From: an uncultured Opitutia bacterium | Lineage (GTDB): Bacteria > Verrucomicrobiota > Verrucomicrobiia > Opitutales > Opitutaceae | Length of the DNA: 44,247 nt | Reading direction: 5' to 3' | Assembly (NCBI GenBank): GCA_903839035.1 | Contig: CAIMAQ010000107.1 | Span: forward strand, 1-44,247 | Shown here: piece after piece, positions 3,529 through 29,533 of the stretch | How positions within the stretch are numbered: position 1 is the first letter of the stretch | How the letters are laid out: every line of letters starts with the position of its first letter | Made by a program: the position numbers and the translations under genes | Notes under the pieces: generated by a model | Database searches by the model: none | Seen by the model: only the letters and a program-made list of their open reading frames with translations | What the model was told of the DNA's origin: nothing

Positions 3529-4329
3529 TCAGTTGCGGAAGTGGAAGCTGACGTTGGAACCGTGCGGTTGCTCGTGGCAGCCGGCGCTCCAGCAGGTGCC
3601 CTGCATGAGGCGGGAGTTATGATTCTCCGTGGTGTGCCGGATGGCGTTGGCGTTGATCTCGCCGCTGGAGCCGGGCGTGGAAGCTTCCAAGTGGCAGCGC
3701 AGGCAGAGGTTGGCGTCGCGGGCGACCAGCATCTTGGCGTTGATGGAGCCGTGGGGGTTGTGGCAGGCCACGCAGCCCTCGCGCATTGCGCCGTGCTCGT
3801 AGACGAACGGACCCTTCTGTTCGGTGTGGCACTTGGTGCAGGTGGCGTTCTGGCCCTCGAGGTCGACGCCGGTGCCGGCGATCGCATTGCCCTTGTGGAC
3901 CTCATGGCAGTCGGCGCAGCTCATCTTGCCGTTCAGCACCTGGTGGGTGTTGGGCAGGCTGAACTGGGCTTTCTTGTCGAGGTGGCAGGCAAAACAGGCC
4001 TCAGGCGACTTGCCTGGGTTGACGATCGAGCCCTTGCCGCCGCCAGCGGCGACGTGGACGCTGCCGGGACCGTGACAGGCCTCGCAGCCAGTCTCACCGA
4101 CCTTGGGGTCGGCCAGATTCAGGCGGGCGTGGCTCGCGGTGGCGAAATGGTCGGTTTGGTCGGTATGGCACTGGGCGCATTCCTTGGTGCCGACGTAGTG
4201 CGCGCCGGGGATCTTGGGCGGCGCGAGCACGGCGCGATTAACGCCGATGCAGGAAATTAGCAGCAGGCCCCAAATGATGGTGCCTCCGAATATCAGGGTG
4301 TTTTTGCTCCAGCGGTTTTTCATGGTCAT
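3529..4329 (-). CDS. mtrA: MtrA/DmsE-like octaheme c-type cytochrome
   Basis: The 266-residue protein has seven canonical heme motifs (CAQCH, CEACH, CFACH, CADCH, CTKCH, CVACH, CLRCH) and one CX4CH motif (CWSAGCH) near the C-terminus, eight in all. MtrA, PioA and DmsE homologues usually have ten. The N-terminus has a hydrophobic segment ending LLLISC, with Cys27 in an acceptable lipobox, so the protein may be lipid-anchored rather than freely periplasmic. It is the partner of the adjacent barrel gene, and the pair should form an electron conduit across the outer membrane. Two candidate starts exist two codons apart (4329 and 4323); the first is used. Expression is predicted from P2. No separate cell-surface cytochrome of MtrC or OmcA type is visible in the window. 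Confidence 0.85.
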   Translation of the reverse strand: MTMKNRWSKNTLIFGGTIIWGLLLISCIGVNRAVLAPPKIPGAHYVGTKECAQCHTDQTDHFATASHARLNLADPKVGETGCEACHGPGSVHVAAGGGKGSIVNPGKSPEACFACHLDKKAQFSLPNTHQVLNGKMSCADCHEVHKGNAIAGTGVDLEGQNATCTKCHTEQKGPFVYEHGAMREGCVACHNPHGSINAKMLVARDANLCLRCHLEASTPGSSGEINANAIRHTTENHNSRLMQGTCWSAGCHEQPHGSNVSFHFRN

Positions 4330-4394: not shown

Positions 4395-4456
4395 AATATG
4401 CCAGAATGGGGCAGGGCCATCGCCGCATGATTTGGCGACTTATGCGCGTGAATTGC
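4395..4456 (-). promoter_or_regulatory. P2: predicted AraC-type operator and promoter of mtrAB
   Basis: Toward mtrA, half-sites GCAATTCACGCG (from 4456) and CCAAATCATGCG (from 4435) are 21 bp apart. CATATT at 4400-4395, preceded by an extended-10 TGG, lies 30 bp beyond the proximal CCAAA. The distal half-site overlaps the last codons of the upstream radical SAM gene. The predicted transcript start is near 4388, about 59 nt before mtrA. The DNA is closely similar to the operator at 27931-27956 upstream of hupE. Confidence 0.65.
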
Positions 4457-5799: not shown

Positions 5800-7965
5800 C
5801 TAGTGGCCGAGCCGCGACAGGAGCGCGTAGACCATCAGTCCGAGGATCAGCACGCCGATCCCGAGGAAGATGAAGCCGAGTGTCTTGTAGAGCGTCTTCC
5901 GCGTGGCCCAGTCACTGTGCAGGACGCGGTGCTCCTCGAGCCGGCCGCTGGCGACCAGGCGGTCGTACCACCGGCGGCGCTCCGACAGCATCTCGGTCTT
6001 CGAGATGTGGCCGGAGAAGATCACCGTATCCATCGGGAACTTGTCGAAGCGGAAGTGCGTGTTGAAGAAATGGAAGGTGAAGATGAAGCCCGCGGCCAGC
6101 AGGGCCTCATCGGAGTGGATCACGACCGCGATGTTGATCATCCAGCCCGGCAGGAAGGCCGTGAAGAAGCGCGGGAACCAGAGCACCAAGCCGGACAGGC
6201 CGATGATGGCGACGCCCCAGAACACCGCGAGGTAGTCGAAGCGCTCCCAGTAGGTCCAGCGGTCCCACGACGGCTTCGGGCCGCGGCCGACGAACCATTT
6301 CACGTGGGCGATGAAGTCGCGCCCGTCCTGCAGGGACGGCACCATGGAGTCGGGGCCGAAGACCCCGCCCCACACCTGGCGCAGGGAGAACTTGCCGGTG
6401 ACCGGATCATGCAGGGCGCGGCGGTTCCGCCACAGGCTTTGCACCACGTTGGTGATGTGCAGGGCGAAGTAGAGGAACGTCACCATCGCGGCGAGGTGAT
6501 GCAGCACGCGCGCGGCCTCGGGTCCGCCGAGGATGTTGAACAGGGTGTGGGCCCAGTCCGTGTAGTAGAACTTCAGCGGCATGCCGGTCAGCACGAGCAT
6601 CAGGAAGCTCGTGACCACGAGCATGTGGAGGAAGCGCTCATACGGGTTGAAGCGGCGGTACGTCTCGGCATCCGCATGGGCGGCGAGCCGCGCGGCCCGG
6701 AAGCCGGCGGGGTTGCGGAAGTAGGTGATCGCGAAGCGCGTGATCCAGAGCAGCGTGTGCAGGCCGAAGAAGGCGAACACGCTGACCAGCAGCGTCGTCA
6801 TCGCCAGGTACACGGCGTTAAGCGCGGCGTAGTGCTTGCCGTCGGTGGGATCGGCGTGCGGCTGGTACTGGGCAAACGAGGCGGTGGCGCCCTCGTGGCA
6901 CTTGGCGCAGGTCCCAACGATGTGGGCCGCGGAGAGCTTGGAACGGGCGTCGGTGTGCTTGAAGATGTCGTGGTGGCCGTGGCAGTCGTAGCAGGCGGCG
7001 ACCTCGGCAGCCGAGTTGGTCTTGCCGAGGAACATGGCCTTGCCGTGGTAGGTCTCGCGGTAGTTGGCGAGGCGCTCCTCATGGCAGGCGCCGCACTTGG
7101 CGTCGCTGGTGGCCTTGAAGTGGGCGTTGCCCGGCCGCTCGATCTCGTGCGCGGTGTGGCAGTCGGTGCAGACGGGGCTCTTGCGCCCGTTCCTCTCCAG
7201 CAACGTGCCGTGCACGCTCGCGGCGAAGGTCTTCTCGACGCCGATGTGGCAGGCACCGCAGGTCTGGGCCAGCGCGGCGCGGCTGGTGTGGGCGGTGCGG
7301 TCCTTGATCGACTTGATGTCATGCACCCCGTGGCAGTCGTTGCAGGTCGGGGAGACGTTGAGGCCCATCTGGTAGAGGCCCTGGCCGTGGATGCTGTCGC
7401 GGAAATGCGCGACGGCGCCGTTGTTCTTCAGCCCCAGCTTGGAGGCGTCGCCCTCGTGGCACTTCGCGCAGGTCGCGAGCAGGTTGAATTTCGCGACCGG
7501 GGAGTCGGTGTGTTTCACCGGCAGCAGCGTGTGGGCATCACCGTGGCAGGCGGCACAGGTGGCGGCGGCGGGGCGGCCGTTGGTGCGGCTCACGCCGTGG
7601 ATACTCGTGGCAAACTGGGCGACGGCGCCCGCGTGGCAGGAGGCGCATTGCGCGGGCGGGAGCTTCGAGTCGTGCGGCGTCTCCTTGAGTGTGGCGTGGC
7701 AATCCACGCAATTCACGCCGGCGTGGACGGACTTGGCGAAGAGCTCGGACCGCACGCCGATCCACCCGGCGGCCTCGCCCTTCTTGCGCGGCTTGAACTC
7801 CGCCTCATGGCAGTCGAGGCACTCGGAGTTGGCGACGGCGGGCGGCGTGAGCGCGGGGCCTGCGAGGGCGTGGTCGGGACCGGCCGGAGTGGTGGTTGCG
7901 ACCGAGACGAATGGAGTGAGCAGGGCGAGGGCCGGCCAGAGGAAAAACCGGGAGAAAACTTTCAT
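5800..7965 (-). CDS. cbcL: CbcL-like fusion: multiheme (11 c-type) cytochrome with C-terminal cytochrome b domain
   Basis: A signal peptide (MKVFSRFF...) leads into a periplasmic domain with eleven CXXCH motifs between about residues 49 and 370. About 340 residues of membrane domain follow, with roughly six helices and several helix-borne histidines (FLHMLVV, VLHHLAA, FALHITN, FTFHFF) suited to b hemes. Geobacter CbcL has the same plan: a multiheme c domain fused to a HydC/FdnI-type cytochrome b, acting as an inner-membrane menaquinol oxidase for extracellular respiration. By analogy this protein moves electrons from quinol to periplasmic cytochromes. An in-frame ATG at 7983 would add six residues, but it overlaps the -10 hexamer predicted for P3 and precedes a poorer signal peptide, so 7965 is preferred. 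The HemW-like gene follows in the operon. Confidence 0.8.
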   Translation of the reverse strand: MKVFSRFFLWPALALLTPFVSVATTTPAGPDHALAGPALTPPAVANSECLDCHEAEFKPRKKGEAAGWIGVRSELFAKSVHAGVNCVDCHATLKETPHDSKLPPAQCASCHAGAVAQFATSIHGVSRTNGRPAAATCAACHGDAHTLLPVKHTDSPVAKFNLLATCAKCHEGDASKLGLKNNGAVAHFRDSIHGQGLYQMGLNVSPTCNDCHGVHDIKSIKDRTAHTSRAALAQTCGACHIGVEKTFAASVHGTLLERNGRKSPVCTDCHTAHEIERPGNAHFKATSDAKCGACHEERLANYRETYHGKAMFLGKTNSAAEVAACYDCHGHHDIFKHTDARSKLSAAHIVGTCAKCHEGATASFAQYQPHADPTDGKHYAALNAVYLAMTTLLVSVFAFFGLHTLLWITRFAITYFRNPAGFRAARLAAHADAETYRRFNPYERFLHMLVVTSFLMLVLTGMPLKFYYTDWAHTLFNILGGPEAARVLHHLAAMVTFLYFALHITNVVQSLWRNRRALHDPVTGKFSLRQVWGGVFGPDSMVPSLQDGRDFIAHVKWFVGRGPKPSWDRWTYWERFDYLAVFWGVAIIGLSGLVLWFPRFFTAFLPGWMINIAVVIHSDEALLAAGFIFTFHFFNTHFRFDKFPMDTVIFSGHISKTEMLSERRRWYDRLVASGRLEEHRVLHSDWATRKTLYKTLGFIFLGIGVLILGLMVYALLSRLGH

Positions 7966-7978
7966 GGGAGAATGCCAG

Positions 7979-8040
7979 AGCATGCTCCCATTACCCAGAC
8001 CCTGCTCCGCAGGGGTTGGCCGAACGCACGCGTTTCTTGG
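7979..8040 (-). promoter_or_regulatory. P3: predicted AraC-type operator and promoter of the cbcL-like gene
   Basis: Toward the gene, CCAAGAAACGCG starts at 8040 and CCAACCCCTGCG at 8019, 21 bp apart. CATGCT at 7984-7979 sits at the standard 30-bp distance. The transcript would start near 7972, leaving a very short leader before the ATG at 7965. A 7-bp inverted repeat, ATGGGAG (7964-7970) and CTCCCAT (7985-7991), brackets the predicted start. Confidence 0.6.
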
Positions 8041-9664: not shown

Positions 9665-10000
9665 TCAGGCCTTGAACTTCCGGATGTAGGCGACGAGGTC
9701 CTTGACCTCGGCGGGCGTGAGATCCGAGTAGGCCTTCATCTTCTCCTTGCCGGTCTTGTCCTTGTAGCCGTCGACAATGACCTTGGCCATGTCCTCGTCC
9801 TTCAGGTCGGCCTGCACCTTGGCATCCGTGTAGTCCTTCAGCGAAAGTTTCTTGCCGACCTTGGTCAGGCCCTTGCCGTCGGCGCCGTGGCACTTCGTGC
9901 AGAGGTTTTCCCAGTTTTCAGAGGCGGGAGCGGCATAGCCAAGGGCGGAGCCGAGGAGGAAAAGGAGGCTGAGCGCCGTGATTTTGGAGCTGGTTTTCAT
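9665..10000 (-). CDS. Small periplasmic monoheme class I cytochrome c
   Basis: The 111-residue precursor has a clear signal peptide (cleavage near GYAA-P at residue 24). One CTKCH heme motif at 34-38 lies at the start of the mature chain, and Met88 in the C-terminal half is a good axial ligand. Mature size, about 87 residues, fits cytochrome c6/c553-like electron shuttles. It is the first gene after promoter P4 and precedes imcH, so a role in accepting electrons from the ImcH-like or CbcL-like oxidases and handing them to the MtrA-like conduit is plausible. The partner assignment is an inference from gene order. Confidence 0.85.
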   Translation of the reverse strand: MKTSSKITALSLLFLLGSALGYAAPASENWENLCTKCHGADGKGLTKVGKKLSLKDYTDAKVQADLKDEDMAKVIVDGYKDKTGKEKMKAYSDLTPAEVKDLVAYIRKFKA

Positions 10001-10070: not shown

Positions 10071-10132
10071 ACCTTAGCACAATTGGGACCCAGCGGCTGC
10101 GCATCGCTTGCGGAGCTTCACGCAAAGCTTGC
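10071..10132 (-). promoter_or_regulatory. P4: predicted AraC-type operator and promoter of cytochrome c-imcH
   Basis: Toward the cytochrome gene, GCAAGCTTTGCG (from 10132) and GCAAGCGATGCG (from 10111) are 21 bp apart and both fit the half-site consensus fully. TAAGGT at 10076-10071, preceded by TGC, is 30 bp beyond the proximal GCAAG. The predicted start is near 10064, about 64 nt before the ATG. P5 lies 81 bp away in the opposite orientation. Confidence 0.65.
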
Positions 10133-10212: not shown

Positions 10213-10274
10213 GCAAGGAGTGGGCACAGCTGCGCAAGAAATGCGCAGTCGTCCGGACTGACTTAGGTCATACT
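10213..10274 (+). promoter_or_regulatory. P5: predicted AraC-type operator and promoter of lipoprotein-ccsBA
   Basis: GCAAGGAGTGGG (from 10213) and GCAAGAAATGCG (from 10234) are 21 bp apart. CATACT at 10269-10274 is 30 bp beyond the proximal GCAAG. The transcript would start near 10281, leaving only about six nucleotides before the ATG at 10287, so translation may be nearly leaderless. Confidence 0.65.
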
Positions 10275-10286
10275 GTTAACCGCACC

Positions 10287-11489
10287 ATGTCACGGTTCCA
10301 ATTCTCCCTGCCCCGGTCCCACGTTTTGCCTCGGCGCGCCTCAATATCGGGTCTCACCGCCCGTTCATCCGGCCTGCTCCGGACCCTGCTCCTTGCCCTT
10401 CCGCTCGCCGCGGGGGCCTGTCGCGAGGGCAAGATCGAGGACTATCGCATTGCCAAGGAGTCGGATGCCCCGGCGCCCGCCGCCGGTCCCGCCGCGACGG
10501 CCATGCCGCCAGCCGGGGCCCCGGGCGCCGACCACAACGCACCGTTTTTGACCTCCCGGCCCGGCACCGCGCTGGTTTGGACCGCCCCCGCGTCGTGGAA
10601 GAAGAAGCAGAATTCGTCCATGCGCAAAGGCAGCTACACCGTGGGCGAAGAGGGCACCGGCGGCGACCTGGCGATCACGGCCTTCCCCGGTGACGTCGGC
10701 GGCGACCTGGCGAATGTGAACCGCTGGCGCGGCCAGGTGGGGCTGGCCCCGATTGCGGACTCCGAGTTGTCGGGGGCCCTGACGCCCCTCGAGGCCAATG
10801 GCCTGAAGATCGAGTATGTCGACCTGCTTGGTGGCACGCCGGAGCAACCGGTCCGCATGCTGGGCGCCTTGGTGCCCTACGACGGCTCCACGTGGTTTTT
10901 TAAGCTCACCGGTCCCGCGGCGCTGGTCGCGCAGGAAAAGCCCGCCTACCTCGAGCTGCTCCGCTCGGTAAAGGCCGCGCCGACTCTGGCCGTCGACGCT
11001 TCCGTTCCGACGGGTTCAACCCCGCCGGTATCCGACATGGCCAGTTCCGCCGTTCCCACGGCTGGCGGTCCCGGTCTCAAGTGGGTGGCTCCCGCCCATT
11101 GGCAGAGCAAGCCCGCCTCCGGCATGCGCAAGGCCACGTTTGTGGCCCTGGGCGACGCCGGGACGTTGGCCGAGCTTTCCGTGACGGCTTTCCCCGGCGC
11201 CGTCGGGGGCGAACTGGCGAACATCAACCGCTGGCGCGGCCAGCTGTCGCTGCCGCCGCTGGGTGAGGCTGAGCTCGCGGGAGCGATCACCCGCGAAACC
11301 GTCCACGGCCTCGCCGTGACGTTGGTGGATCTCACCGGCGGCCCCGCCGGCAAGCCGGTGCGCCTGCTCGGCGCGATCGTCCCGCACGATGGCGCGAACT
11401 GGTTCTTCAAGTTCACTGGCCCGCCGCCGGTGGTGGCCAAGGAACAGGCCGCCTTCCTCGAATTTGTACGCTCCCTGCAGGCTCCCTGA
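10287..11489 (+). CDS. Exported protein, probable lipoprotein, with two tandem homologous domains
   Basis: The 400-residue protein has a long N-terminal region ending in a hydrophobic stretch LLLALPLAAGAC; the Cys is in an imperfect lipobox, so a lipoprotein is likely but not certain. Two repeats of about 135 residues follow. Each begins W-x-AP-x-x-W and contains TAFPG-x-VGG-x-LAN-x-NRWRGQ, then LLGA-x-VP-x-DG-x-x-WFFK-x-TGP. No cysteine or heme motif occurs in the mature domains. I do not recognise an enzymatic function. The gene ends six bases before ccsBA and is expressed from P5, so an accessory role in cytochrome c assembly or envelope electron transfer is the simplest guess. The ATG at 10287 is chosen because it lies just after the predicted promoter; an open frame continues upstream to 10083. 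Confidence 0.7.
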   Translation: MSRFQFSLPRSHVLPRRASISGLTARSSGLLRTLLLALPLAAGACREGKIEDYRIAKESDAPAPAAGPAATAMPPAGAPGADHNAPFLTSRPGTALVWTAPASWKKKQNSSMRKGSYTVGEEGTGGDLAITAFPGDVGGDLANVNRWRGQVGLAPIADSELSGALTPLEANGLKIEYVDLLGGTPEQPVRMLGALVPYDGSTWFFKLTGPAALVAQEKPAYLELLRSVKAAPTLAVDASVPTGSTPPVSDMASSAVPTAGGPGLKWVAPAHWQSKPASGMRKATFVALGDAGTLAELSVTAFPGAVGGELANINRWRGQLSLPPLGEAELAGAITRETVHGLAVTLVDLTGGPAGKPVRLLGAIVPHDGANWFFKFTGPPPVVAKEQAAFLEFVRSLQAP

Positions 11490-11494
11490 CCATC

Positions 11495-14400
11495 ATGAAG
11501 AACCTCGCCACCCTCCTTCGCGATGCCCGCGACCTGATCGTCTCGCTCAAGCTGACGGTCGTTCTGATCCTGTTCTCCATCATCCTCGTCCTGGTCGCCA
11601 CGCTGGACCAGGTGAACCTCGGCATCTGGGTGGTGCAGCAGAAGTACTTCAACACCTTCGTGGTGTTCTGGAAGACGGGGAACATGTCGCTCGCGATCTT
11701 TCCCGGCGGCTACACCATCGGCGGCCTGCTGCTGCTGAACCTCCTCGCGGCGCACTTCTACCGCTTCAAGTTCAGCTGGCGAAAAATCGGCATCTGGCTC
11801 GTCCACGCCGGGCTCATCCTCCTCCTCATTGGCCAGCTCCTCACCGGGCTCATGCAGGACGAGTACCAGCTGCGCCTGGACCAGGGGCAGACGAAGAATT
11901 TTTCCGAGAGCTACCGCAACGTCGAGCTGGCGATCACGGACATCACCGACCCCAAGTACGACGAGGTCATCGCGATTCCCGAGGACCGGCTGGTGCACCA
12001 GACCCCGATCCAGCACCCGCGGCTGCCTTTCCGCGTCGCGGTGAAAACCTATCTGCCCAACGCCACCCTGCAGATGGGCCTCCCGCCGGCGACCACCGCT
12101 GACACCACCGCGACGCAGGGCGTCGGCCCGCAGATCCTCGCGACGCTGCAACCGCTCACCTACAAGCAGGACGAGCGCAACATCCCGGCGGCCTACGTCG
12201 AGCTGACCGGCCCGGAGGGCGTCATCGGCACCTGGCTCGTGTCGCCGTTCCTCGACGACCCGCAGCATTTCACCGCGGGCGGCCGCAGCTGGAAGATCGC
12301 GCTGCGGTTTGCGCGGCATTACCAGCCGTACTCGCTCACGCTGCTGAAGTTCAGCCACGACAAGTACGCGGGCACCGACATCCCGAAGAATTTCTCCAGC
12401 CGCCTCCGCCTCACGACGCCCGACGGGCGCGACGACCGCGACGTGCTGATCTACATGAACAACCCGCTGCGCTACGCCGGGCTCACGTTCTATCAGGCGG
12501 GCTTTCAGAACAACGACATGACCACCGTGCTCCAGGTGGTGCGCAACCCGAGCTGGCTGATCCCGTACATTGCCTGCGGGGTGATGACCCTCGGCCTGAT
12601 CCTCCAGTTTGGCCTGCACCTGGTCGGCTTCATCGGCAAGCGCCGCGCCCTCGCGGCGGGCGCCCGTGCGCCCCAACCGGCCGCGTCCGCTCCGAAAGTG
12701 AAGGTTCCCTGGACGGCGGCGCGGCTCTTTCCCTGGATCACGCTGGGCGTGGCAGCCCTGGCCGTGCTGTTCTCGCTGTTTCCGCCGCGGGCCGGGGGCG
12801 TGTACGACCTCGCCGGCTTTGGCCGGCTGCCGACGCTCGTCAACGGCCGCATCAAGCCGCTCGACACCGTGGCCCGCACGTCGCTGATGGTCCTCCAGGC
12901 CCGCCAGCGCGTCAAAGCCGCCGACGGCCGCTCGGTCAGCCCGGAGGAGTGGCTCCTCGACGTCCTGTACCGTCCCGCGCAGGCGAACGCCTACCCGGTG
13001 TTCAAAATCGTCCACCCGGACGTGCTCTCTTTGTTCAACCTAACGCTCGAGGACGGTACGCCCGAGCTGCGCTTCACGTTCAACCAGCTGCTGAAGGGTC
13101 TGCCCGAACTCGACCGCCAGTCGAAGATGGCTGACTCGGTCGAGTCCGCCCTGCGCAATTCCTTCCAACGGGGTGTGATCCAGCTGCGCGACAACATCGT
13201 CTTGTACGAGAGCCTCGGCGACAGCGTGGTTGCGCCAGGCGTGGACGACTTCCTTGGCCATCTGGCCCATTTCAACGAAACCGCGCCGGCAGGATGGGCG
13301 GCGGTCAAGGCCAAGCAGGCGGGGCAGCCCCATGATGCGGCGGCCGCCGCGGCCCTGCTCGAGCTGAGCAACACCTTCTCCAGTTTGGAGAGCCTCGCTT
13401 ATCTCCGCCCGATTCCCCCTGCGACGGGCAAGACGGACCCGAAGGGCTGGATGAATCTCGGCGCCGCGTTGCATCAAAGCCTGGAACACGGCCGGCTTGA
13501 CGGCGCGTCGGCCACCTATGTCGCGCTGGGCCTCGCCTGGCGGGACCAGCAGCCGGCGAAATTCAACAGCCTCGTGCACGAGTATCGCACCAGCCTGGAG
13601 CCGGAGATTCCCGGCTTTCTGGCCAAGGTGGACCTCGAGGCGCGCTTCAACGCCGCGCAGCCGTTCTACACCAGCACGATCCTGTACGTGTTTGCCTTTC
13701 TCCTGGCGGTCTTCTCCTGGCTCAAGTGGCCCGAGGCGCTGGGCCGCGCGGCGCTCTGGCTGACCGGGCTCGCGTGGGTGCTGACCACTGCCGGCATCGT
13801 GACCCGCATGTGGCTCGAGGGCCGCCCGCCGGTGACCAACCTTTATTCGTCGGCCCTGTTCATCGGCTGGGCCGCGGTCGCGTTGTGCCTCCTGCTGGAG
13901 GTCACCTACCGCAATGCGATCGGCAGCGTGGCCGCGGGGCTGATCGGTTTTGCCACGCTGCTGATTGCCCACCACCTGGCGCTCGGCGGCGACACGCTCG
14001 AGATGATGCGCGCCGTGCTCGATTCGAACTTCTGGCTGGCGACGCATGTCGTCACCGTGACGCTTGGCTACTCGGCGACGTTCCTCGCGGGCTTCCTCGC
14101 CCTGATTTACGTCATCCGCGGCGTCTTCACGCGCTCGCTCGATGCCGCGACGGCGGATTCGCTGAACCGCATGGTGTACGGCGTGGTCTGCTTCGCCACG
14201 GTGCTGAGCTTTGTCGGCACGGTGCTGGGCGGCATCTGGGCGGACCAGTCCTGGGGCCGCTTCTGGGGCTGGGACCCGAAGGAGAACGGCGCGCTGATCA
14301 TCGTCCTGTGGAACGCGCTCATCCTGCATGCCCGCTGGGGCGGCCTGATCAAGGCGCGCGGCCTGATGGCGCTGGCGATCTTCGGCAACATCGTGACGGC

Positions 14401-14569
14401 CTGGAGCTGGTTTGGCGTCAACATGCTCGGCGTGGGCCTGCACAGCTACGGCTTCATCGACGCGGCGTTCTGGTGGCTGCTGGCCTTTGTCGCCAGCCAG
14501 CTGGCCTTCATCGCGGTGACCGGCCTGCCGCTCCCGCGCTGGCGGAGCTTCCGGTCCGCGATCGGTTGA
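11495..14569 (+). CDS. ccsBA: Fused ResB-CcsA cytochrome c biogenesis protein (System II, CcsBA)
   Basis: The 1024-residue protein joins a ResB/CcsB half to a CcsA half. The N-terminal half has transmembrane helices near residues 15-35, 65-85 and 90-110, a large periplasmic domain, and a helix near 355-375. A second periplasmic domain (about 430-725) links to CcsA. The C-terminal half carries the tryptophan-rich WWD signature WADQSWGRFWGWDPKENGAL and many membrane helices. CcsBA exports heme and attaches it to CXXCH motifs of apocytochromes in the periplasm. The local demand is large: 27 heme-binding motifs are encoded within 10 kb. It is the second gene of the P5 operon. The family assignment is firm because both signature halves are present in order. 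Confidence 0.93.
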   Translation: MKNLATLLRDARDLIVSLKLTVVLILFSIILVLVATLDQVNLGIWVVQQKYFNTFVVFWKTGNMSLAIFPGGYTIGGLLLLNLLAAHFYRFKFSWRKIGIWLVHAGLILLLIGQLLTGLMQDEYQLRLDQGQTKNFSESYRNVELAITDITDPKYDEVIAIPEDRLVHQTPIQHPRLPFRVAVKTYLPNATLQMGLPPATTADTTATQGVGPQILATLQPLTYKQDERNIPAAYVELTGPEGVIGTWLVSPFLDDPQHFTAGGRSWKIALRFARHYQPYSLTLLKFSHDKYAGTDIPKNFSSRLRLTTPDGRDDRDVLIYMNNPLRYAGLTFYQAGFQNNDMTTVLQVVRNPSWLIPYIACGVMTLGLILQFGLHLVGFIGKRRALAAGARAPQPAASAPKVKVPWTAARLFPWITLGVAALAVLFSLFPPRAGGVYDLAGFGRLPTLVNGRIKPLDTVARTSLMVLQARQRVKAADGRSVSPEEWLLDVLYRPAQANAYPVFKIVHPDVLSLFNLTLEDGTPELRFTFNQLLKGLPELDRQSKMADSVESALRNSFQRGVIQLRDNIVLYESLGDSVVAPGVDDFLGHLAHFNETAPAGWAAVKAKQAGQPHDAAAAAALLELSNTFSSLESLAYLRPIPPATGKTDPKGWMNLGAALHQSLEHGRLDGASATYVALGLAWRDQQPAKFNSLVHEYRTSLEPEIPGFLAKVDLEARFNAAQPFYTSTILYVFAFLLAVFSWLKWPEALGRAALWLTGLAWVLTTAGIVTRMWLEGRPPVTNLYSSALFIGWAAVALCLLLEVTYRNAIGSVAAGLIGFATLLIAHHLALGGDTLEMMRAVLDSNFWLATHVVTVTLGYSATFLAGFLALIYVIRGVFTRSLDAATADSLNRMVYGVVCFATVLSFVGTVLGGIWADQSWGRFWGWDPKENGALIIVLWNALILHARWGGLIKARGLMALAIFGNIVTAWSWFGVNMLGVGLHSYGFIDAAFWWLLAFVASQLAFIAVTGLPLPRWRSFRSAIG

Positions 14570-14573
14570 AAAT

Positions 14574-14598
14574 CTTGGTCACGGATTACGTGACCAAG
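14574..14598 (+). other. Hairpin directly downstream of ccsBA
   Basis: CTTGGTCACG (14574-14583) and CGTGACCAAG (14589-14598) form a perfect 10-bp stem with a 5-nt loop, starting four bases after the ccsBA stop codon. There is no T-tract on either side, so it may be a factor-assisted terminator or an mRNA 3' stabiliser rather than an intrinsic terminator. Confidence 0.5.
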
Positions 14599-14657
14599 CC
14601 GCGCTGAACCGCGGGCCCTCGGCTCAAACCCCGGTCCAAAGTCGTTTTTCACCCCGC

Positions 14658-14800
14658 GTCGTTTTCACTTAATAGATGAAAATGACGCGGAGCGCCGCGC
14701 GCCATCGACCCTGGGTCGTTTTCACTTATTATGTGAAAATGACGGGATGGACTCACGGCCACCGGTTGGGCGTCGTTTTCACGTATTAAGTGAAAACGAC
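14658..14800. repeat. Three 29-bp palindromes with an exact 57-bp period
   Basis: Copies lie at 14658-14686, 14715-14743 and 14772-14800. Each starts GTCGTTTTCAC and ends in an imperfect complement (TGAAAAYGAC), with an AT-rich centre. The 28-bp spacers differ from each other, and starts are exactly 57 bp apart. A partial arm, GTCGTTTTTCAC, lies at 14641. The block fills the 354-bp gap between the convergent ends of ccsBA and hemN, which otherwise holds only the ccsBA hairpin and GC-rich DNA. No cas gene or transposase is nearby. It may be a remnant of IS ends with multiple transposase-binding repeats, or a REP-like array. Confidence 0.75.
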
Positions 14801-14923
14801 ACGGGGGAATGGGGCTGGCCTGATGGGCGGGCGCCGTCGGCCTGGTGGCGCGGGGCGCGGGGTTCCTGCGTTGGGCGCGCGGCGGGGCGGAGCGACGGCG
14901 AAACGGCGGCGGGGCGGGACGGC

Positions 14924-16294
14924 TCAGACCGTGCGCGAGTGGCGCTTGGACTCGGGGGCGTAGTACGCGTCGAAGCAGACGGCGATGTTGCGCAGGAACA
15001 GCCGGCCGAGGTCCGTGACCTGCAGGCCGCCGGGTGAGAGTTTGACGAGCCCGTCGGCCGCGAGGGGCGCGAGCCGGGCAATCTCCTTGGCGTACTTTTC
15101 GGCGAAATTGCAGCCGAACTCCCGGGAAAGCTGGGCGTAATCCAGGGTCAGGTGGCACATCACGCGCATGATGATCTCACGGCGATGGGTGTCCTCGTCG
15201 CTGAGCTCCACGCCGCGGATGGCTGGCAGCTCGCCGCGGTCGAGGGCGGCGTAGTAGGGCTCGAGGGTCTTGTGATTCTGGCGGTAGCTGTGCGGCGTCT
15301 GGGAAATCGCGGAGATGCCGAGCGCGAGGATTTCCACACCGGCCTTGGTGCTGTAGCCCTGGAAATTGCGCTGCAGCGTGCGCGCGGCCTGCGCGACGGC
15401 GAGTTCGTCGGTCTCGCGGGCGAAATGGTCCATCCCGATGTAGACGTAGCCGCTGCGGGTGAGCGTCTCCGTGATGACCTTGAGCATGGCCATCTTGGTC
15501 TCCGGGGACGGCAGCGCCGCCTCGCGCTCGAGGAGCTTTTGCGCGGGTTTCATCCACGGCACGTGCGCGTAGCTGAACACGGCGAGGCGGTCGGGCTGGA
15601 TCTCCAGCACCTGGCGGAGCGTGTCGGTGAAGGATTCGACGGTCTGGTAGGGCAGGCCGTAGATCAGGTCGATGTTGATGGAGGTGAACCCCTCTTCGCG
15701 CAGCCAGCGGATGGCCTGCTCGGTCATGGCGCGCGGCTGGATGCGGTGGACCGCGACCTGCACCTGGGGATTGAAGTCCTGCACGCCGAGGGAGGCGCGG
15801 GTGAAGCCGCTCTCGCGCAGGGCGACCACCTGTTCCCGGCTCAGCCGGCGGGGGTCAATCTCCACGCTCAGCTCGGCGTCGGGGGCCAGTTGGAAGTGTT
15901 TCCGGGTGATCGCCGCGAGGCGGGCGAGCTGCGGGGCCTGGAAAAAGGTGGGGGTGCCGCCGCCGTAGTGGAGCTGGACCACCTGGCGGCCCGGATGCAC
16001 GCGCTTGGCCATGAGCTCGACCTCCTTCTCGAGGTAGTCGAGGTAGGTGTCCGGCAGCTTGTGGTTGGTGCTGATCACCGTCGTGCAGCCGCAGAACCAG
16101 CAGAGCGTCTCGCAGAACGGCAGGTGGAAATAGAGCGAAAGCGGCACGGTGGCGTCCACGTTCGCCCGGTCTAGGTGCGCCAGCAGCGGGTCGGGCGTGG
16201 GGAAGTCCTTGAACTCCACCGCCGTGGGATAGGAGGTGTAGCGCGGGGCCGAGATATCGTATTTCCGGACGAGGTCTAAATCGACGGTGATCAA
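14924..16294 (-). CDS. hemN: Oxygen-independent coproporphyrinogen III oxidase
   Basis: HemN converts coproporphyrinogen III to protoporphyrinogen IX by radical SAM chemistry without O2. The cluster motif CETLCWFCGC (Cys61, 65, 68, 70) has the CX3CX2CXC form diagnostic of true HemN. The N-terminus DLVRKYDISAPRYTSYPTA, plus YGGGTPTF and the GLPYQT segment, are typical. The start is the TTG at 16294, giving 456 residues, the usual family length. An upstream ATG at 16441 would add 49 unrelated residues and would lie beyond the predicted promoter P6. The gene is convergent with ccsBA and divergent from hypE. It should supply heme for the multiheme cytochromes under low oxygen. Confidence 0.92.
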   Translation of the reverse strand: MITVDLDLVRKYDISAPRYTSYPTAVEFKDFPTPDPLLAHLDRANVDATVPLSLYFHLPFCETLCWFCGCTTVISTNHKLPDTYLDYLEKEVELMAKRVHPGRQVVQLHYGGGTPTFFQAPQLARLAAITRKHFQLAPDAELSVEIDPRRLSREQVVALRESGFTRASLGVQDFNPQVQVAVHRIQPRAMTEQAIRWLREEGFTSINIDLIYGLPYQTVESFTDTLRQVLEIQPDRLAVFSYAHVPWMKPAQKLLEREAALPSPETKMAMLKVITETLTRSGYVYIGMDHFARETDELAVAQAARTLQRNFQGYSTKAGVEILALGISAISQTPHSYRQNHKTLEPYYAALDRGELPAIRGVELSDEDTHRREIIMRVMCHLTLDYAQLSREFGCNFAEKYAKEIARLAPLAADGLVKLSPGGLQVTDLGRLFLRNIAVCFDAYYAPESKRHSRTV

Positions 16295-16313: not shown

Positions 16314-16375
16314 AGAATAGCAGACGCCCGGCAATCCGGCCACGCCCCGGTTGCTGGAGGCTGTGCATTTCTTGC
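16314..16375 (-). promoter_or_regulatory. P6: predicted AraC-type operator and promoter of hemN
   Basis: Toward hemN, GCAAGAAATGCA (from 16375) and GCAAC (from 16354) are 21 bp apart. TATTCT at 16319-16314, preceded by TGC, lies 30 bp beyond the proximal GCAAC and is one of the best -10 matches of the set. The predicted start is near 16307, 13 nt before the TTG start codon. Confidence 0.65.
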
Positions 16376-16416: not shown

Positions 16417-16478
16417 CCAAGATCTGCGTGATGATTCGCAAGCGCTGCTGGGCCGGAGACCCGGAATCCTGCGATGAT
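16417..16478 (+). promoter_or_regulatory. P7: predicted AraC-type operator and promoter of hypE
   Basis: CCAAGATCTGCG (from 16417) and GCAAGCGCTGCT (from 16438) are 21 bp apart. GATGAT at 16473-16478, preceded by TGC, lies at the standard 30-bp distance. It is back to back with P6, so the 314-bp hemN-hypE gap holds two divergent promoters of the same class. The predicted start is near 16485, about 124 nt before the hypE ATG. Confidence 0.6.
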
Positions 16479-16608: not shown

Positions 16609-17670
16609 ATGGCCACCTCCGCCGATCTCTCCGGACTCCAATGTCCCGTGCCTTTACCGCATCGGACGGAGATCACCGTGGGACACGGCGGCGGTGGCCG
16701 GCTGACACAGGACCTGCTGGACCGGGTCTTCCGGCCGGCCTTCGGCAACCCGGCGCTCGATTCCCAGCATGACGGCGCGATGTTGATGCCGCCGGTGGGC
16801 TGCCGGCTGGCGTTCACGACGGACTCCCACGTGGTCAGTCCCCTGTTTTTTCCCGGTGGCGACATCGGTGAACTGGCGGTCAATGGCACCGTCAACGACC
16901 TCTGCATGTGCGGGGCGCGGCCCCGTTGGCTCAGTGCCGGCTTCATCCTCGAGGAGGGGCTTCCCATCGCCACGCTGGAGCGCGTGGTGGCGTCGATGCG
17001 GGACGCCGCCCAGGCGGCCGGGGTGAGCATTGTAACCGGCGACACGAAGGTCGTGGAGCGCGGCAAGGGTGACGGACTTTATGTGACCACGTCCGGGGTG
17101 GGCGTGATCGAAACCCCACTGGTGGTGGCGCCCTCTTCCATCCGCGCCGGGGATGTCGTGATCCTGAGCGGTGACATCGGCCGCCACGGCATCGCCATCA
17201 TGGCGACCCGGGCGGGCCTGAGTTTCGAAAGCGAAATCCAAAGCGATTGCGCGCCGCTGGTGACACCGGTGCACGCCCTGTTGGGCGCGGGCCTGGAAGT
17301 CCATTGCCTGCGCGACCTGACCCGCGGCGGACTCGCGACGGCGCTGGTCGAGCTGGCGGAGACAGCCCATGTGGGCATCGAGATGGACACTGCGAACGTC
17401 CCGGTGTCCGAGCTCGTGCAGGGCGCGTGTGAAATCCTCGGGCTCGACCCGTTGTACGTGGCCAACGAAGGCCGGTTTGTGTGCGTGCTGCCCGAGTCGC
17501 AGGCCACGCGGGCGTTGAGCATTCTCCAGAAGTCGGCGCTGGAACAATCCGCGGTGATCATCGGCCGCGTCACGGCCGGTCCGGCCGGGCAGGTGACGCA
17601 GCGGAGCATCATCGGCTCTGAGCGGATCGTGGACCGCCTGAGTGGCGAGCAGTTACCGCGGATTTGCTAG
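16609..17670 (+). CDS. hypE: Hydrogenase maturation protein HypE (carbamoyl dehydratase)
   Basis: HypE accepts a carbamoyl group from HypF on its C-terminal cysteine and dehydrates it with ATP to a thiocyanate, the source of the CN ligands of the [NiFe] site. The 353-residue protein ends in PRIC, with the essential terminal Cys, and has the AIR-synthase-like features [37 protein letters not shown] and [12 protein letters not shown]. The gene stands alone on the plus strand, convergent with hypD (20 bp between stops), and has its own operator P7, while the other hyp genes form one minus-strand run. Confidence 0.95.
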
Positions 17671-22676: not shown

Positions 22677-22738
22677 GCAAGATACGCTCAGTTTTTGCCA
22701 AGTGACGCACAACAGCGCGCCGCCGGTTTCGGTACTGT
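22677..22738 (+). promoter_or_regulatory. P8: predicted AraC-type operator and promoter of the hydrogenase operon
   Basis: GCAAGATACGCT (from 22677) and CCAAGTGACGCA (from 22698) are 21 bp apart. TACTGT at 22733-22738 lies 30 bp beyond the proximal CCAAG. The predicted start is near 22745, with a leader of about 77 nt before the small-subunit ATG at 22822. It sits in the 200-bp hypA-hydrogenase gap. Confidence 0.65.
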
Positions 22739-22821: not shown

Positions 22822-23979
22822 ATGTCCCTCGAACTCGAAACCCTCCCCAAGGAACAGACGATCTACGACCAAGTCATCGCCCGCGGCGTGTCGCGCCGGG
22901 AATTCCTCGGCTTCTGCGCCTGGATTGGCGCGTGCATCGGCGTGCAAGGTGCCGGTGTCGACCAGGTGGTCAAGGCCCTCGAGACCAAGAAGCGCATCCC
23001 GGTGATCTGGCTCCATTTTCAGGAGTGCACCTGCTGCAGCGAGTCCTTCCTGCGCAGCTCGCACCCGATCGTCGCCGACATCCTCCTCGACAAGATCTCG
23101 CTGGACTACACGGAGACGCTGATGGCGGCCTCGGGCCACCAGGCCGAGCAGTCGCTCCAGGATGTGATCGCGAAGTACAAGGGCGAATACCTCCTCTGCA
23201 TCGAGGGCTCGGTGCCGCTCGCCGAGGACGGCGTCTATTGCTGCATCGGCGGCAAGTCGGCCAAGAGCATCGCCGAGGAAGTGGCGGAGCATGCCAAGGC
23301 GATCATCGCCTGGGGCAACTGCGCCTGTTCCGGCTGCGTGCAGGCCGCGAAACCCAATCCGACGCAGGCGATGCCGATCAAGAAAGTCATCGCCGGCAAG
23401 CCGATCATCAACGTCCAGGGCTGCCCCCCGATCGCGGAGGTCATGGCCGGCGTGCTGGTGCACCTGCTGGCCTTCGATGCCATCCCGGAGCTGGACAATC
23501 TCGGCCGCCCGAAGGCCTTCTACTCCCGCCGGGTCCACGACACGTGCTACCGCCGCCCGAACTTCGACGCCGGTCTCTTTGTCGAGAGCTTCGACGACGA
23601 GAATGCGCGGAAGGGCTATTGCCTCTACAAGGTCGGCTGCAAGGGCCCCACGACCTACAACTCCTGCGGAACGATCCGCTGGAACGGCGGCGTCAGCTTC
23701 CCAATCCAGTCGGGTCACCCGTGCATCGGCTGCTCCGAGGAAAACTTCTGGGACAAGGGTCCGTTCTACGAGCGCCTGCCCAACTTCCCGGGCTTCGGCG
23801 TCGAGGCCACGGCCGACACGCTGGGCAAAGTCGCCCTCGGCGCCGCGGCGGTGGGGGTGGCCGCACACGCGGTCATGACGAACTTCCGCAAGCGCAACGA
23901 GATCGGCGAACAGACCGGCGAAAACGCCGAGAAGGCGGAAAAAGCCGACACCGCCGTGACCGACGACCATTCCATCTAA
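22822..23979 (+). CDS. hyaA: [NiFe]-hydrogenase small subunit, group 1, O2-tolerant type
   Basis: The small subunit relays electrons from the NiFe site through iron-sulfur clusters to the membrane cytochrome b. A Tat motif SRREFLGF (residues 24-31) directs export, and a C-terminal hydrophobic helix after about residue 330 anchors it. Cys69, Cys71, Cys72, Cys167, Cys172 and Cys201 line up with the six cysteines of the [4Fe-3S] proximal cluster of Ralstonia HoxK (C17, C19, C20, C115, C120, C149), with a constant offset of 52. Cys71 and Cys172 are the supernumerary pair linked to O2 tolerance. An additional Cys169 is unusual. The ATG at 22822 puts the Tat motif at a normal distance. The large subunit follows after 18 bp. 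Confidence 0.95.
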
Positions 23980-27240: not shown

Positions 27241-27822
27241 TCAGCTGGCGAGGAGACCCGCGCCAACGGCCGCGATGCCCCAGCCGATCAGGCGGGGAGC
27301 CCGCTCGGAGAGGCGGGCAGCGCCGAGACCCAGGCCCAGGCCGGTGACGGCAAGGAGGGCGGAGGCACTCATCAAGCCGGCGCCATAGGCGAGACCACTG
27401 CTGGTGGCGGGCATTTCTGCCCCGTGGGCAAAACCATGGAACACGGCAAAAACCGAGGCGAGGGTCACGCTGGCGACGAGCGGCAGGCGGCCGGCGCAGC
27501 CCACGAGCAGACCTAGGGCCAGCACGGAGGCGGCGATGCCCTGGTCGAGCCCGGGGATGACCCCGATGAAATGACCGCCGACGGCTGACAGGGCCATCAC
27601 GCCGACAAAGGCAGCTGGCACACGCCAGCTGGCGCGGCCACCGAGTTGGGCGGCCCACAGGCCGATGGCGATCATCGCGAGAAGGTGATCCCAGCCGGTC
27701 AACGGGTGGGAGAAACCGCACGCGACACCATTGGCCTGCGCAGCGCCCGGGTGGGCCAACGCGGCTGACGTGGCAGCAAGAAAAAGGGAGGTCGCCAGCA
27801 GGGAGGAAGATTTGATTTTCAT
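27241..27822 (-). CDS. hupE: HupE/UreJ-family membrane protein
   Basis: HupE proteins are small membrane proteins, proposed nickel permeases, associated with hydrogenase loci. The 193-residue protein has a cleavable signal (MKIKSSSLLATSLFLAATSAALA) followed by the mature start HPGAA, the motif HPLTGWDHLLAMIAIGLWA, and FHGFAHGAEMP with further metal-capable histidines, plus about six membrane helices. The ATG at 27822 begins the signal peptide. Transcription is predicted from P9, which has two stacked operators. It is convergent with the hydrogenase operon and divergent from the PocR-AraC regulator. Confidence 0.92.
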   Translation of the reverse strand: MKIKSSSLLATSLFLAATSAALAHPGAAQANGVACGFSHPLTGWDHLLAMIAIGLWAAQLGGRASWRVPAAFVGVMALSAVGGHFIGVIPGLDQGIAASVLALGLLVGCAGRLPLVASVTLASVFAVFHGFAHGAEMPATSSGLAYGAGLMSASALLAVTGLGLGLGAARLSERAPRLIGWGIAAVGAGLLAS

Positions 27823-27848: not shown

Positions 27849-27956
27849 AGGATAGTCGCAAACCCCCGCCGGTGCATTGCGGTTCTTGCCGTACACTCCG
27901 CACCAATTGTCCCGCACTTTTTGCGCATCACTTGGCGAGTCCTGCGCATCAATTGT
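27849..27956 (-). promoter_or_regulatory. P9: hupE promoter with two stacked AraC-type operators
   Basis: Toward hupE, the upstream operator has ACAATTGATGCG (from 27956) and CCAAGTGATGCG (from 27935). The downstream operator has ACAATTGGTGCG (from 27910) and GCAAG (from 27889). Each pair is spaced 21 bp and the two operators start 46 bp apart. TATCCT at 27854-27849 lies 30 bp beyond the most proximal GCAAG. The predicted start is near 27842, 20 nt before the ATG. The same DNA is the upstream region of the regulator gene on the plus strand. Confidence 0.65.
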
Positions 27957-28009: not shown

Positions 28010-28918
28010 ATGCCCGTACCCGACGCTCTCCGCCCGAAACGCACGCTCGTCGACCAGCTCCGTGCCTCGCCCATTTACCGCGACTATGCGAAGGCTTTCC
28101 GCGAGACCACGGGTCTGCCCCTGAACCTGCGCGAGCTTGAGAGCTTCGACCTGCCGTTCCACGGCGACCCGAATCAGAATCCCTTCTGCGAGCTGATGGC
28201 CGGGGCCAACCACACCTGTGCGGGCTGCCTGCAATTGCAGCGGAAAGTGGAGGAGGGTGCGGGCGGGGAGGCGAAGACCCTCACGTGTTTTGCCGGGCTG
28301 AGCGACTCGGCGGTCCCGGTCAAGGTGGGGGAAAACCTGGTGGCGTTCCTCCAGACCGGGCAGATCCTGCTGCACGAGCCGACCGCACCCCAGTTGCAGA
28401 AGCTCTCGCGGGTGCTGCGGAAATACGGCGTGGCGACGGAGCTGGAAAAATACGAGGCGGCCTACCGCCGGAGCCGCGTGGTGCCGCAGCGGCAGTACCG
28501 CTCGATCCTGCAGCTCCTGACAATTTTTGCGCAGCATCTCTCCACCCTGAGCAACCAGCTGGTGGTCCAGGATGTGACGGAGGAGGCCCCCGCCATCAGC
28601 CGCGCGCGCGCTTTCATCACCGAGCATCACGGGGAGGAAATGACACTCACGGGCGTGGCCCGGGCGGTGAACATGAGCGCCTTTTATTTCTGCAAGAGCT
28701 TCCGCAAGGCGACCGGGCTGACGTTCACCCATTATGTCGCCCGGGTGCGGGTGGAGAAGGTCAAGGACCTGCTGCTGAACCCGAACAAACGGGTGAGCGA
28801 GGCCGCCTACGAGGCCGGCTTCCAGTCCCTGTCCCAGTTCAACCGCGTCTTCCGCCGCATTGCCGGGGAGCCGCCCTCGACGTACCGGGAGAAAGTGCGT
28901 TCCGGAGCCCTGACCTGA
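28010..28918 (+). CDS. AraC-family transcriptional regulator with PocR sensory domain
   Basis: The 302-residue protein has an N-terminal PocR-type ligand-binding domain (about residues 12-175) with four cysteines, Cys60, Cys70, Cys73 and Cys93, in a pattern suited to a metal or redox site. A C-terminal AraC double helix-turn-helix domain (about 200-300) includes MSAFYFCKSFRKATGLTF and VSEAAYEAGFQSLSQFNRVFRR. AraC-type activators usually bind two direct half-sites 21 bp apart next to the -35 region, exactly the arrangement of P1 to P9. It is the only transcription factor in the window and lies beside P9. It is therefore the leading candidate to control the cytochrome and hydrogenase genes. The signal it senses cannot be read from sequence. 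Confidence 0.9.
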   Translation: MPVPDALRPKRTLVDQLRASPIYRDYAKAFRETTGLPLNLRELESFDLPFHGDPNQNPFCELMAGANHTCAGCLQLQRKVEEGAGGEAKTLTCFAGLSDSAVPVKVGENLVAFLQTGQILLHEPTAPQLQKLSRVLRKYGVATELEKYEAAYRRSRVVPQRQYRSILQLLTIFAQHLSTLSNQLVVQDVTEEAPAISRARAFITEHHGEEMTLTGVARAVNMSAFYFCKSFRKATGLTFTHYVARVRVEKVKDLLLNPNKRVSEAAYEAGFQSLSQFNRVFRRIAGEPPSTYREKVRSGALT

Positions 28919-28935: not shown

Positions 28936-29427
28936 TCAGGCCGGGATATGATGCACCGGGTGGTGCTCGGGATCCGCGAGGAGGGACAGGGCTGCGGGCC
29001 TGACCTCCGGGCTGGCTTTGTCCGATACCTCGCGAAACAGGCAGATGGCACAGAAGGACTGGATCTCACGCTGGGCGATGTGACTGAACACCTGCTCCAG
29101 GCAGGTCAGCGCCTCGTCCCGCTGCGGTGCGGTCAGGCCCGGGGCGAGCACCTGCGCCAGCACGAGACCCTCGCGCAGGGCCTGTCGTCCGGCGGAGAAA
29201 TAGGCCAGGAGGGGATTGCGGCCGCACGGACAAGGCGGTTCCGCGTTGCGGGTGTGGAGCCGGCGGGCCGACCAGATCCGCAGGGTCGAGAAGACCTCAT
29301 TCAACGTGGTGTCGAGCAGGTGGACCAGCGTGTCCGGATTGGCCAGGGGCGAATTCATCCGCTCGATCCGCAGGAGGTTCTCCCAATTGGACCGAATGCA
29401 GGGACGATGCGCCTCTAGGGCCTGCAA
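28936..29427 (-). CDS. Uncharacterised protein with CXC and CXXC cysteine pairs
   Basis: I do not recognise the family. The frame encodes a mostly helical soluble protein without signal peptide or membrane helix. Cysteines cluster as PCPCGRNPLLAYF in the middle and SFCAICLF near the C-terminus, which could bind metal. The C-terminus is His-rich (EHHPVHHIPA). The N-terminus (about RPCIRSNWENLLRIE) loosely resembles RsbR-type N-terminal helices, but this is not enough for a call. Start choice is uncertain: TTG at 29427 lies directly after a perfect inverted repeat, the first ATG is at 29358, and the frame is open to 29493. It is convergent with the PocR-AraC gene (17 bp). Confidence 0.55.
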   Translation of the reverse strand: MQALEAHRPCIRSNWENLLRIERMNSPLANPDTLVHLLDTTLNEVFSTLRIWSARRLHTRNAEPPCPCGRNPLLAYFSAGRQALREGLVLAQVLAPGLTAPQRDEALTCLEQVFSHIAQREIQSFCAICLFREVSDKASPEVRPAALSLLADPEHHPVHHIPA

Positions 29428-29454
29428 TATTACCGTTTCCACAAACGGTAATAT
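29427..29454. promoter_or_regulatory. Perfect 12-bp inverted repeat, probable operator
   Basis: ATATTACCGTTT (29427-29438) and AAACGGTAATAT (29443-29454) are exact complements around CCAC. The site abuts the proposed start of the Cys-containing unknown gene. Length and AT-rich ends fit a dimeric repressor site better than a terminator. The ATATTACC core also occurs in the palindrome at 32147-32170. Confidence 0.6.
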
Positions 29455-29533
29455 CCCAGAAAGCCCCGCCCCCCGCTCATCACCCCTTGGCAAATGGTGG
29501 CTGTCTTTTGTTGTGCATGGATTGTCTCCGTCC

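Follow-up and report, generated by a model that had tools for sequence, protein, structure and literature searches.

A PocR-AraC protein as probable activator of a low-oxygen and hydrogen respiration regulon in Opitutaceae, and its predicted direct-repeat operator

The window, i.e., the whole 44,247-nt stretch of DNA analysed here (from an uncultured Opitutaceae bacterium), encodes a PocR-AraC protein which, jointly with a paralogue on contig C11 of the same genome, probably forms the pair of activators behind a regulon of low-oxygen, anaerobic and H2 respiration in Opitutaceae and is itself probably oxygen- or redox-sensing. Computation reveals (i) an operator with defined orientation and -10 spacing, (ii) its co-occurrence and synteny with pocR and the cbb3 operon, and (iii) the content of the regulon that it precedes. 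The gene and its domains are:

28010..28918, plus strand: pocR-araC, 302-aa PocR-AraC regulator (ORF with ATG start)
28082..28552, plus strand: PocR domain (residues 25-181) with Cys60, Cys70, Cys73 and Cys93, its predicted model resembling GAF/IclR-effector folds
28658..28891, plus strand: AraC-type DNA-binding domain (HTH_18)

Pfam assigns PF10114 (PocR) to residues 25-181 of the window protein (E 1.4e-23; 83.9 bits vs. a curated cut-off of 23.9) and HTH_18 to residues 217-294 (E 9.3e-25, above the curated cut-off). ORF and Pfam matches thus bear out the preceding sequence-only reading, which had recognized a PocR-AraC protein with these four cysteines at these positions. With the PocR equivalog model NF047788 (TransRegPocR), the protein reaches 88.3 bits and stays below the curated cut-off of 500. 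The C-terminal part of its predicted model (mean pLDDT 85.8) resembles AraC domains (6swi, Z 16.6, 111 aligned, rmsd 2.1), while the matches listed for the N-terminal part include the GAF/IclR-effector folds 5h1a (Z 10.3, 141 aligned, rmsd 3.5) and 4g3k (Z 9.8, 120 aligned, rmsd 3.2). HTH_18 and the 6swi match correspond to the double helix-turn-helix of AraC family activators; the AraC HTH and PocR domain stand in place of the CRP-type fold and HTH of FNR/FixK. The protein had also been taken for the sole transcription factor of the window, which holds for the part that was scanned: no other DNA-binding transcription factor domain appears in the Pfam scans, which cover 30 window ORFs, the PocR-AraC protein and P0003 out of 168 ORFs of at least 80 aa, some of the scanned window intervals representing the wrong strand. 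A CoA-transferase gene adjoins pocR in the window.

In the direction of the gene under control, the operator reads CAAnnnnTGCGCA-N8-CAAnnnnTGCGnA; it forms a direct repeat with a 21-bp period and spans 34 bp in all. A matrix including the -10 and trained on 95 sites, all from outside the window's clade, finds 11 window matches scoring at least 22, compared to a highest score of 19.4 in 100 shuffles; these 95 sites (score of at least 20, outside the clade) were chosen by means of a first matrix built from window sites, and the test is therefore out-of-sample for the clade, not fully independent. Ten of the 11 matches precede nine genes or operons. The remaining one (1019-1079, score 24.9) lies within a coding region and is without an assigned target. 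The ten sites and two of the genes concerned are:

27922..27955, minus strand: distal tandem operator, 54-55 bp from the pocR start and opposite to the pocR direction
27876..27909, minus strand: proximal tandem operator toward hupE, -10-like TATCCT at 27849-27854, score 23.3
27241..27822, minus strand: hupE (HupE_UreJ), predicted target
29477..29510, minus strand: operator before P0003 (four-cysteine gene), -10-like GATATT at 29450-29455
28936..29493, minus strand: P0003, four-cysteine protein and convergent pocR neighbour, true start probably GTG at 29442
22678..22711, plus strand: operator before the NiFe hydrogenase small and large subunit genes (possible ATG at 22822), -10-like TACTGT
16418..16451, plus strand: operator before the AIRS-family (HypE-like) gene at 16609, -10-like GATGAT
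16341..16374, minus strand: operator before the HemN-like radical SAM gene (about 14927-16219, minus), -10-like TATTCT
10214..10247, plus strand: operator before ORF 10287-11489 and the fused ResB-CcmF gene 11495-14569, -10-like CATACT at 10269-10274
10098..10131, minus strand: operator before a small c-type cytochrome gene (9665-10000, minus), -10-like TAAGGT
8006..8039, minus strand: operator before a multihaem cytochrome c/cytochrome b561 gene (5800-7983, minus), -10-like CATGCT
4422..4455, minus strand: operator before a multihaem CXXCH cytochrome gene (3529-4329, minus), -10-like CATATT

Two of the downstream genes encode unusual domain combinations: ResB and CcmF-like domains are fused in the single 1024-aa ORF 11495-14569, and multihaem cytochrome c and cytochrome b561 (Ni_hydr_CYTB) domains are found within one protein in case of 5800-7983. 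The non-coding stretch 14569-14900 between the ResB-CcmF and HemN-like genes contains about three similar palindromic repeats of the GTCGTTTTCAC...GTGAAAACGAC type.

The intergenic region between pocR and hupE contains an exact pair TGCGCATCA-N12-TGCGCATCA at 27922-27951 with half-sites 21 bp apart, which occurs only once in the window and has no match in 100 shuffles. A doubled operator had been proposed at this place; the matrix goes further and places two complete 34-bp operators in tandem (27922-27955 and 27876-27909), 46 bp apart and both oriented toward hupE. The proximal operator, though the weaker of the two, scores above every shuffle maximum (23.3), and the distal one is without a -10, having CGGAGT at its own -10 distance. 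Among five relatives, the proximal operator is found together with a -10 in L035 (TACTCT), L036 (TATTCT) and L037 (TAAGGT), while at hupE L038 is without the -10 and L039 without the proximal operator. The spacing of 54-55 bp between the distal operator and pocR is retained in the window and in L035-L039.

The -10-like hexamer occupies a fixed position relative to the operator. When 116 distinct sites are compared, those of the window among them, the start of TANNNT falls on position 55 in 44 cases vs. a mean of 0.8 per position, and A56 and T60 occur in 77 % and 79 %, respectively. The PFOR site of the window's own genome has ATCATG at position 55 and no TANNNT. At this fixed distance the proximal half-site would overlap the -35 (positions 32-37, 17-bp spacer), which would be the geometry of a class II activator. 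The paired direct repeat is in helical phase, as for AraC-type activators (21-bp period; predicted -35 overlap). In a de novo analysis of 6-mer spacing in 29 intergenic regions, 21 bp ties with 15 bp (30 each vs. about 9 expected), and the spacing is therefore not decisive alone. We infer that the window protein binds the operator and activates rather than represses: two AraC domains, presumably of a dimer, would contact the two half-sites, the proximal one over the -35 element, and the bound protein would recruit RNA polymerase in class II manner. A function of the operator as repression site appears highly improbable; the reversed site at 27922 upstream of pocR would suit negative autoregulation, but the -10-like hexamer at one single spacing and the orientation of the assigned window sites along their genes argue against it.

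In other genomes, pocR-araC genes often adjoin P0003 homologues and the cbb3 operon (ccoNO, P, G, DsbD-like, I). With the window-only matrix, the operator was found at a score of at least 17.5 in all 29 non-redundant divergent intergenic regions between P0003 homologue and ccoNO (3 of 32 removed as near-duplicates), compared to 5 of 1450 shuffles and 0 of 540 coding stretches. Within these regions it is mostly equidistant from the P0003 homologue, and the ccoNO-facing sites are located several hundred bp ahead of the ccoNO match.

Co-occurrence of regulator and operator across genomes, suggested earlier as a check, is evident from two patterns. Of 130 genomes with PocR at E<=1e-100, 111 have the short operator (at most one mismatch), with a mean of 3.36 sites per genome; the figures are 6 of 23 for genomes of intermediate score and 17 of 46 (mean 0.54) for those without PocR. 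The reversed-pattern control yielded 4 matches in 200 genomes. The contrast also holds within genera (16 genera, 109 genomes; the 23 intermediate genomes left out): none of 20,000 permutations reaches the observed difference (p=5e-5), with 14 genera higher with PocR, one equal and one lower. The operator together with the -10 (at most two mismatches) was detected in 110 of 130 PocR genomes (20 thus being without it), 9 of 23 intermediate ones and 15 of 46 without PocR (Fisher p 1.4e-10 for 110/130 vs. 15/46). Across the phylum sample it is confined to 14 of 194 genomes, each of them from the window's family (19 genomes in the sample); the 175 genomes outside this family yielded no match, as did the control. 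The cbb3 subunit FixO (E<=1e-60) follows the same distribution (113 of 130 PocR genomes vs. 10 of 46 without).

Genomes with operator plus -10 and without the regulator, which by the sequence-only reading should not occur, do exist, namely the 15 of 46 that are without a P0001-like protein (i.e., one resembling the window PocR-AraC). A PF10114 search of these 15 genomes gave four matches, three of them above the cut-off; at E<=0.001, 11 of them yielded no match, including all six with a completeness of at least 90 % and a contamination of at most 5 %. The operator might accordingly be bound by another regulator, with PocR-AraC being merely a co-inherited neighbour. However, 12 of the 15 are also without a strong cbb3 FixO match; as the cbb3 genes are frequent neighbours of pocR, a contig lacking from the assembly might account for the missing regulator, though this is unproven. 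Moreover, 21-bp direct repeats over the -35 suit an AraC-type activator, the within-genus contrast holds, and the operator adjoins pocR not only in the window's own clade but also in G010, G056 and G083. A different binding protein is therefore considered improbable, and the link between PocR-AraC and operator, common to the paralogue, appears well supported at the sequence level.

Which of the two copies is the main activator is a separate issue. The window's own genome (G000, 3.39 Mb) encodes one further PF10114 protein (C11:19233-20114, 62 % identical), located beside the cbb3 operon. In a FastTree phylogeny built from 93 PocR proteins, seven relatives group with the window protein in one clade (support 1.0). 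Hydrogenase genes (>60 % identity) are near pocR in 5 of these 7 relatives and a P0003 homologue in all 7, whereas the 60 named loci outside the clade, which differ in length, include cbb3 in 38, a P0003 homologue in 42, a CoA-transferase gene in 12 and hydrogenase in only 1. All 93 aligned proteins have the recognition stretch QSLSQFNR unchanged, and 90 of the 93 have FYFCK; since the C11 copy carries both, the two copies probably share the operator. One may speculate that the C11 paralogue is the main activator and that the window copy represents a specialised or redundant duplicate, mainly tuning itself and hupE. This would agree with the cbb3 synteny of the C11 copy, as in 38 of the 60 outside loci (the window-clade relatives being hydrogenase-linked in 5 of 7), with the occurrence of the operator in many genomes beyond the window clade, and with the recognition stretches, which do not differ between the copies. 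The conserved presence of the operator 54-55 bp ahead of pocR, in the window as in L035-L039, and the clustering of the window sites around the window copy render it rather unlikely, though it is the most probable of the alternatives considered. The earlier proposal of the PocR-AraC protein as activator of the regulon is hence sustained by synteny, co-occurrence, the site beside pocR and the promoter geometry, with either copy as candidate.

The activator pair would control a coherent set of genes. Among the matches listed for 64 script-picked downstream ORFs (6 of 67 removed as repeats, 3 window ORFs added; 25 of 43 families listed) are 9 multihaem cytochromes, 5 Usp, 4 COX1, 4 PFOR and 2 NiFe small subunits, one of the latter being the window's own. 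The HemN-like gene is also preceded by the operator, which in the window's own genome is additionally located before the cbb3 operon, a Usp gene and a PFOR-like gene. In other bacteria, genes for hydrogen uptake, electron export and low-oxygen respiration are often controlled by FNR. The predicted targets (multihaem cytochromes, cbb3, NiFe hydrogenase, HemN, PFOR, Usp) resemble such an FNR regulon, and because of this resemblance to FNR/Anr regulons, low oxygen or redox is the probable signal. The role in anaerobic electron export and H2 use suggested before agrees with the regulon content and is extended by the cbb3 oxidase, HemN, PFOR and Usp genes. For Anr, the excerpt of PMC6588701 lists hemN in the core.

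Absence of FNR was dropped as an argument, since CRP/FNR-type HTH proteins score above the cut-off in 121 of 200 family genomes, that of the window included (L195; G000:C24:26751-26954). Thus, another regulator could share the job. A crude search for the FNR-like motif CX2C-X4-6-C around 30 CRP/FNR-HTH matches, covering the first 120 residues of open frames of 151-419 residues, gave a single frame on the strand opposite its match, which does not imply absence.

The proposed signal would be perceived by the PocR domain. In the alignment of 93 Opitutaceae PocR proteins (redundant rows removed beforehand), Cys60, Cys70, Cys73 and Cys93 are invariant (92 of 92 letters). Across 30 PocR domains of the phylum, Cys60 and Cys73 are each present in 30 of 30 and Cys93 in 29 of 29 letters, while Cys70 occurs in only 8 of 30. 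From these alignments, Cys60, Cys73 and Cys93 appear to be family-wide, and only Cys70, in place of the usual His94, seems special. The two residues are mutually exclusive in the phylum set (16 with His94 and no Cys70, 8 with Cys70 and no His94, 5 with neither, none with both, 1 without a letter), and in the Opitutaceae set Cys70 is present and His94 absent in every one of the 92 letters, suggesting that Cys70 replaces His94 as candidate ligand. Since the other three cysteines are family-wide and the named member PocR belongs to propanediol utilization loci (excerpt of PMC4207490), the cysteines alone do not equate to oxygen sensing; as a sign of an oxygen-labile Fe-S cluster, the invariant quartet is only suggestive. 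We infer a metal or Fe-S cluster in the sensor domain: the GAF/IclR-like predicted fold probably reads low oxygen or redox via Cys60, Cys70, Cys73 and Cys93, and their centre would most likely be metal or Fe-S.

Alternatively, the PocR domain could sense a small carbon metabolite (propanediol-like or related to CoA esters), with the cysteines forming a structural zinc site. PocR domains are predicted sensors of simple hydrocarbon derivatives according to the title of Anantharaman and Aravind 2005 (cited in PMC1592074 and PMC4207490) and occur in BMC loci according to the excerpt of PMC4207490; moreover, a CoA-transferase gene is located beside the window pocR and in 12 of the 60 outside loci. 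Such a ligand is, however, unlikely in view of the respiratory regulon (cbb3, HemN, hydrogenase, Usp, multihaem cytochromes).

The convergent neighbour P0003 accompanies the regulator widely, its homologues being convergent with pocR in many loci and located beside pocR or cbb3 in many Opitutaceae loci. Its cysteines C88, C90, C148 and C151 are each retained in 63 of 64 aligned homologues (those outside 110-260 aa left out), and no Pfam or NCBIfam match was found for P0003. A globin-like fold is at most tentative, the fold matches of its helical predicted model (Foldseek best E 0.12; VIA, Z 10.5, 134 aligned, rmsd 5.8) being too weak to rely on. A 17-nt inverted repeat (88 % complementary, 4-nt loop) is located at 29422-29459, at the 5' end of the P0003 reading frame. 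A more far-reaching reading, offered only tentatively and held to be somewhat doubtful, is that PocR-AraC with a metal or Fe-S centre replaces FNR as the sensor for low-oxygen and anaerobic respiration in Opitutaceae, with Cys70 in place of His94 constituting the redox centre and the P0003 family, mostly encoded nearby and preceded by the operator as well, acting as partner or modulator.

Titles and abstract openings of the literature searched contain neither a link of PocR to oxygen sensing, cbb3 control or Opitutaceae, nor an account of the regulation by which Verrucomicrobiota change between oxygen, hydrogen and extracellular electron transfer; PocR is mentioned in the anaerobic-growth studies PMC3075218 and PMC3792023. 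What the present analysis offers is a defined regulator, an operator resolved to the base together with its promoter geometry, and a set of predicted targets spanning many genera, which makes it directly testable. If correct, it would add a new type of input for the PocR domain, hitherto known from propanediol-type loci, and a non-FNR solution for low-oxygen control of cbb3 oxidase and hydrogenase.

Compared to PocR of the pdu/cob regulon (NF047788), the window protein has the same order of PocR domain and AraC HTH, but differs in its predicted regulon (respiratory instead of propanediol utilization), probably in having Cys70 without His94, as does a minority of the PocR domains examined in the phylum, and in scoring far below the NF047788 cut-off. 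AirS and NreB are Fe-S sensors whose sensor domain, of GAF or PAS type, contains four cysteines; the number of sensor-domain cysteines is shared, whereas those two are histidine kinases and the cofactor is only putative here. AraC at araI1-I2 binds a 21-bp-spaced direct repeat, the proximal half of which overlaps the -35, and activates in class II manner. The Opitutaceae system matches it in spacing and predicted -35 overlap and differs in sensor domain and targets. FNR, in turn, recognizes the palindrome TTGAT-N4-ATCAA. With FNR/Anr/FixK the system shares a regulon, here predicted, of cbb3, hemN, hydrogenase, Usp and cytochromes; however, those regulators are of the CRP family and bind a palindrome, whereas the Opitutaceae regulator is of the AraC family, with a 21-bp direct repeat as its predicted operator and its cysteines in a GAF-like domain.
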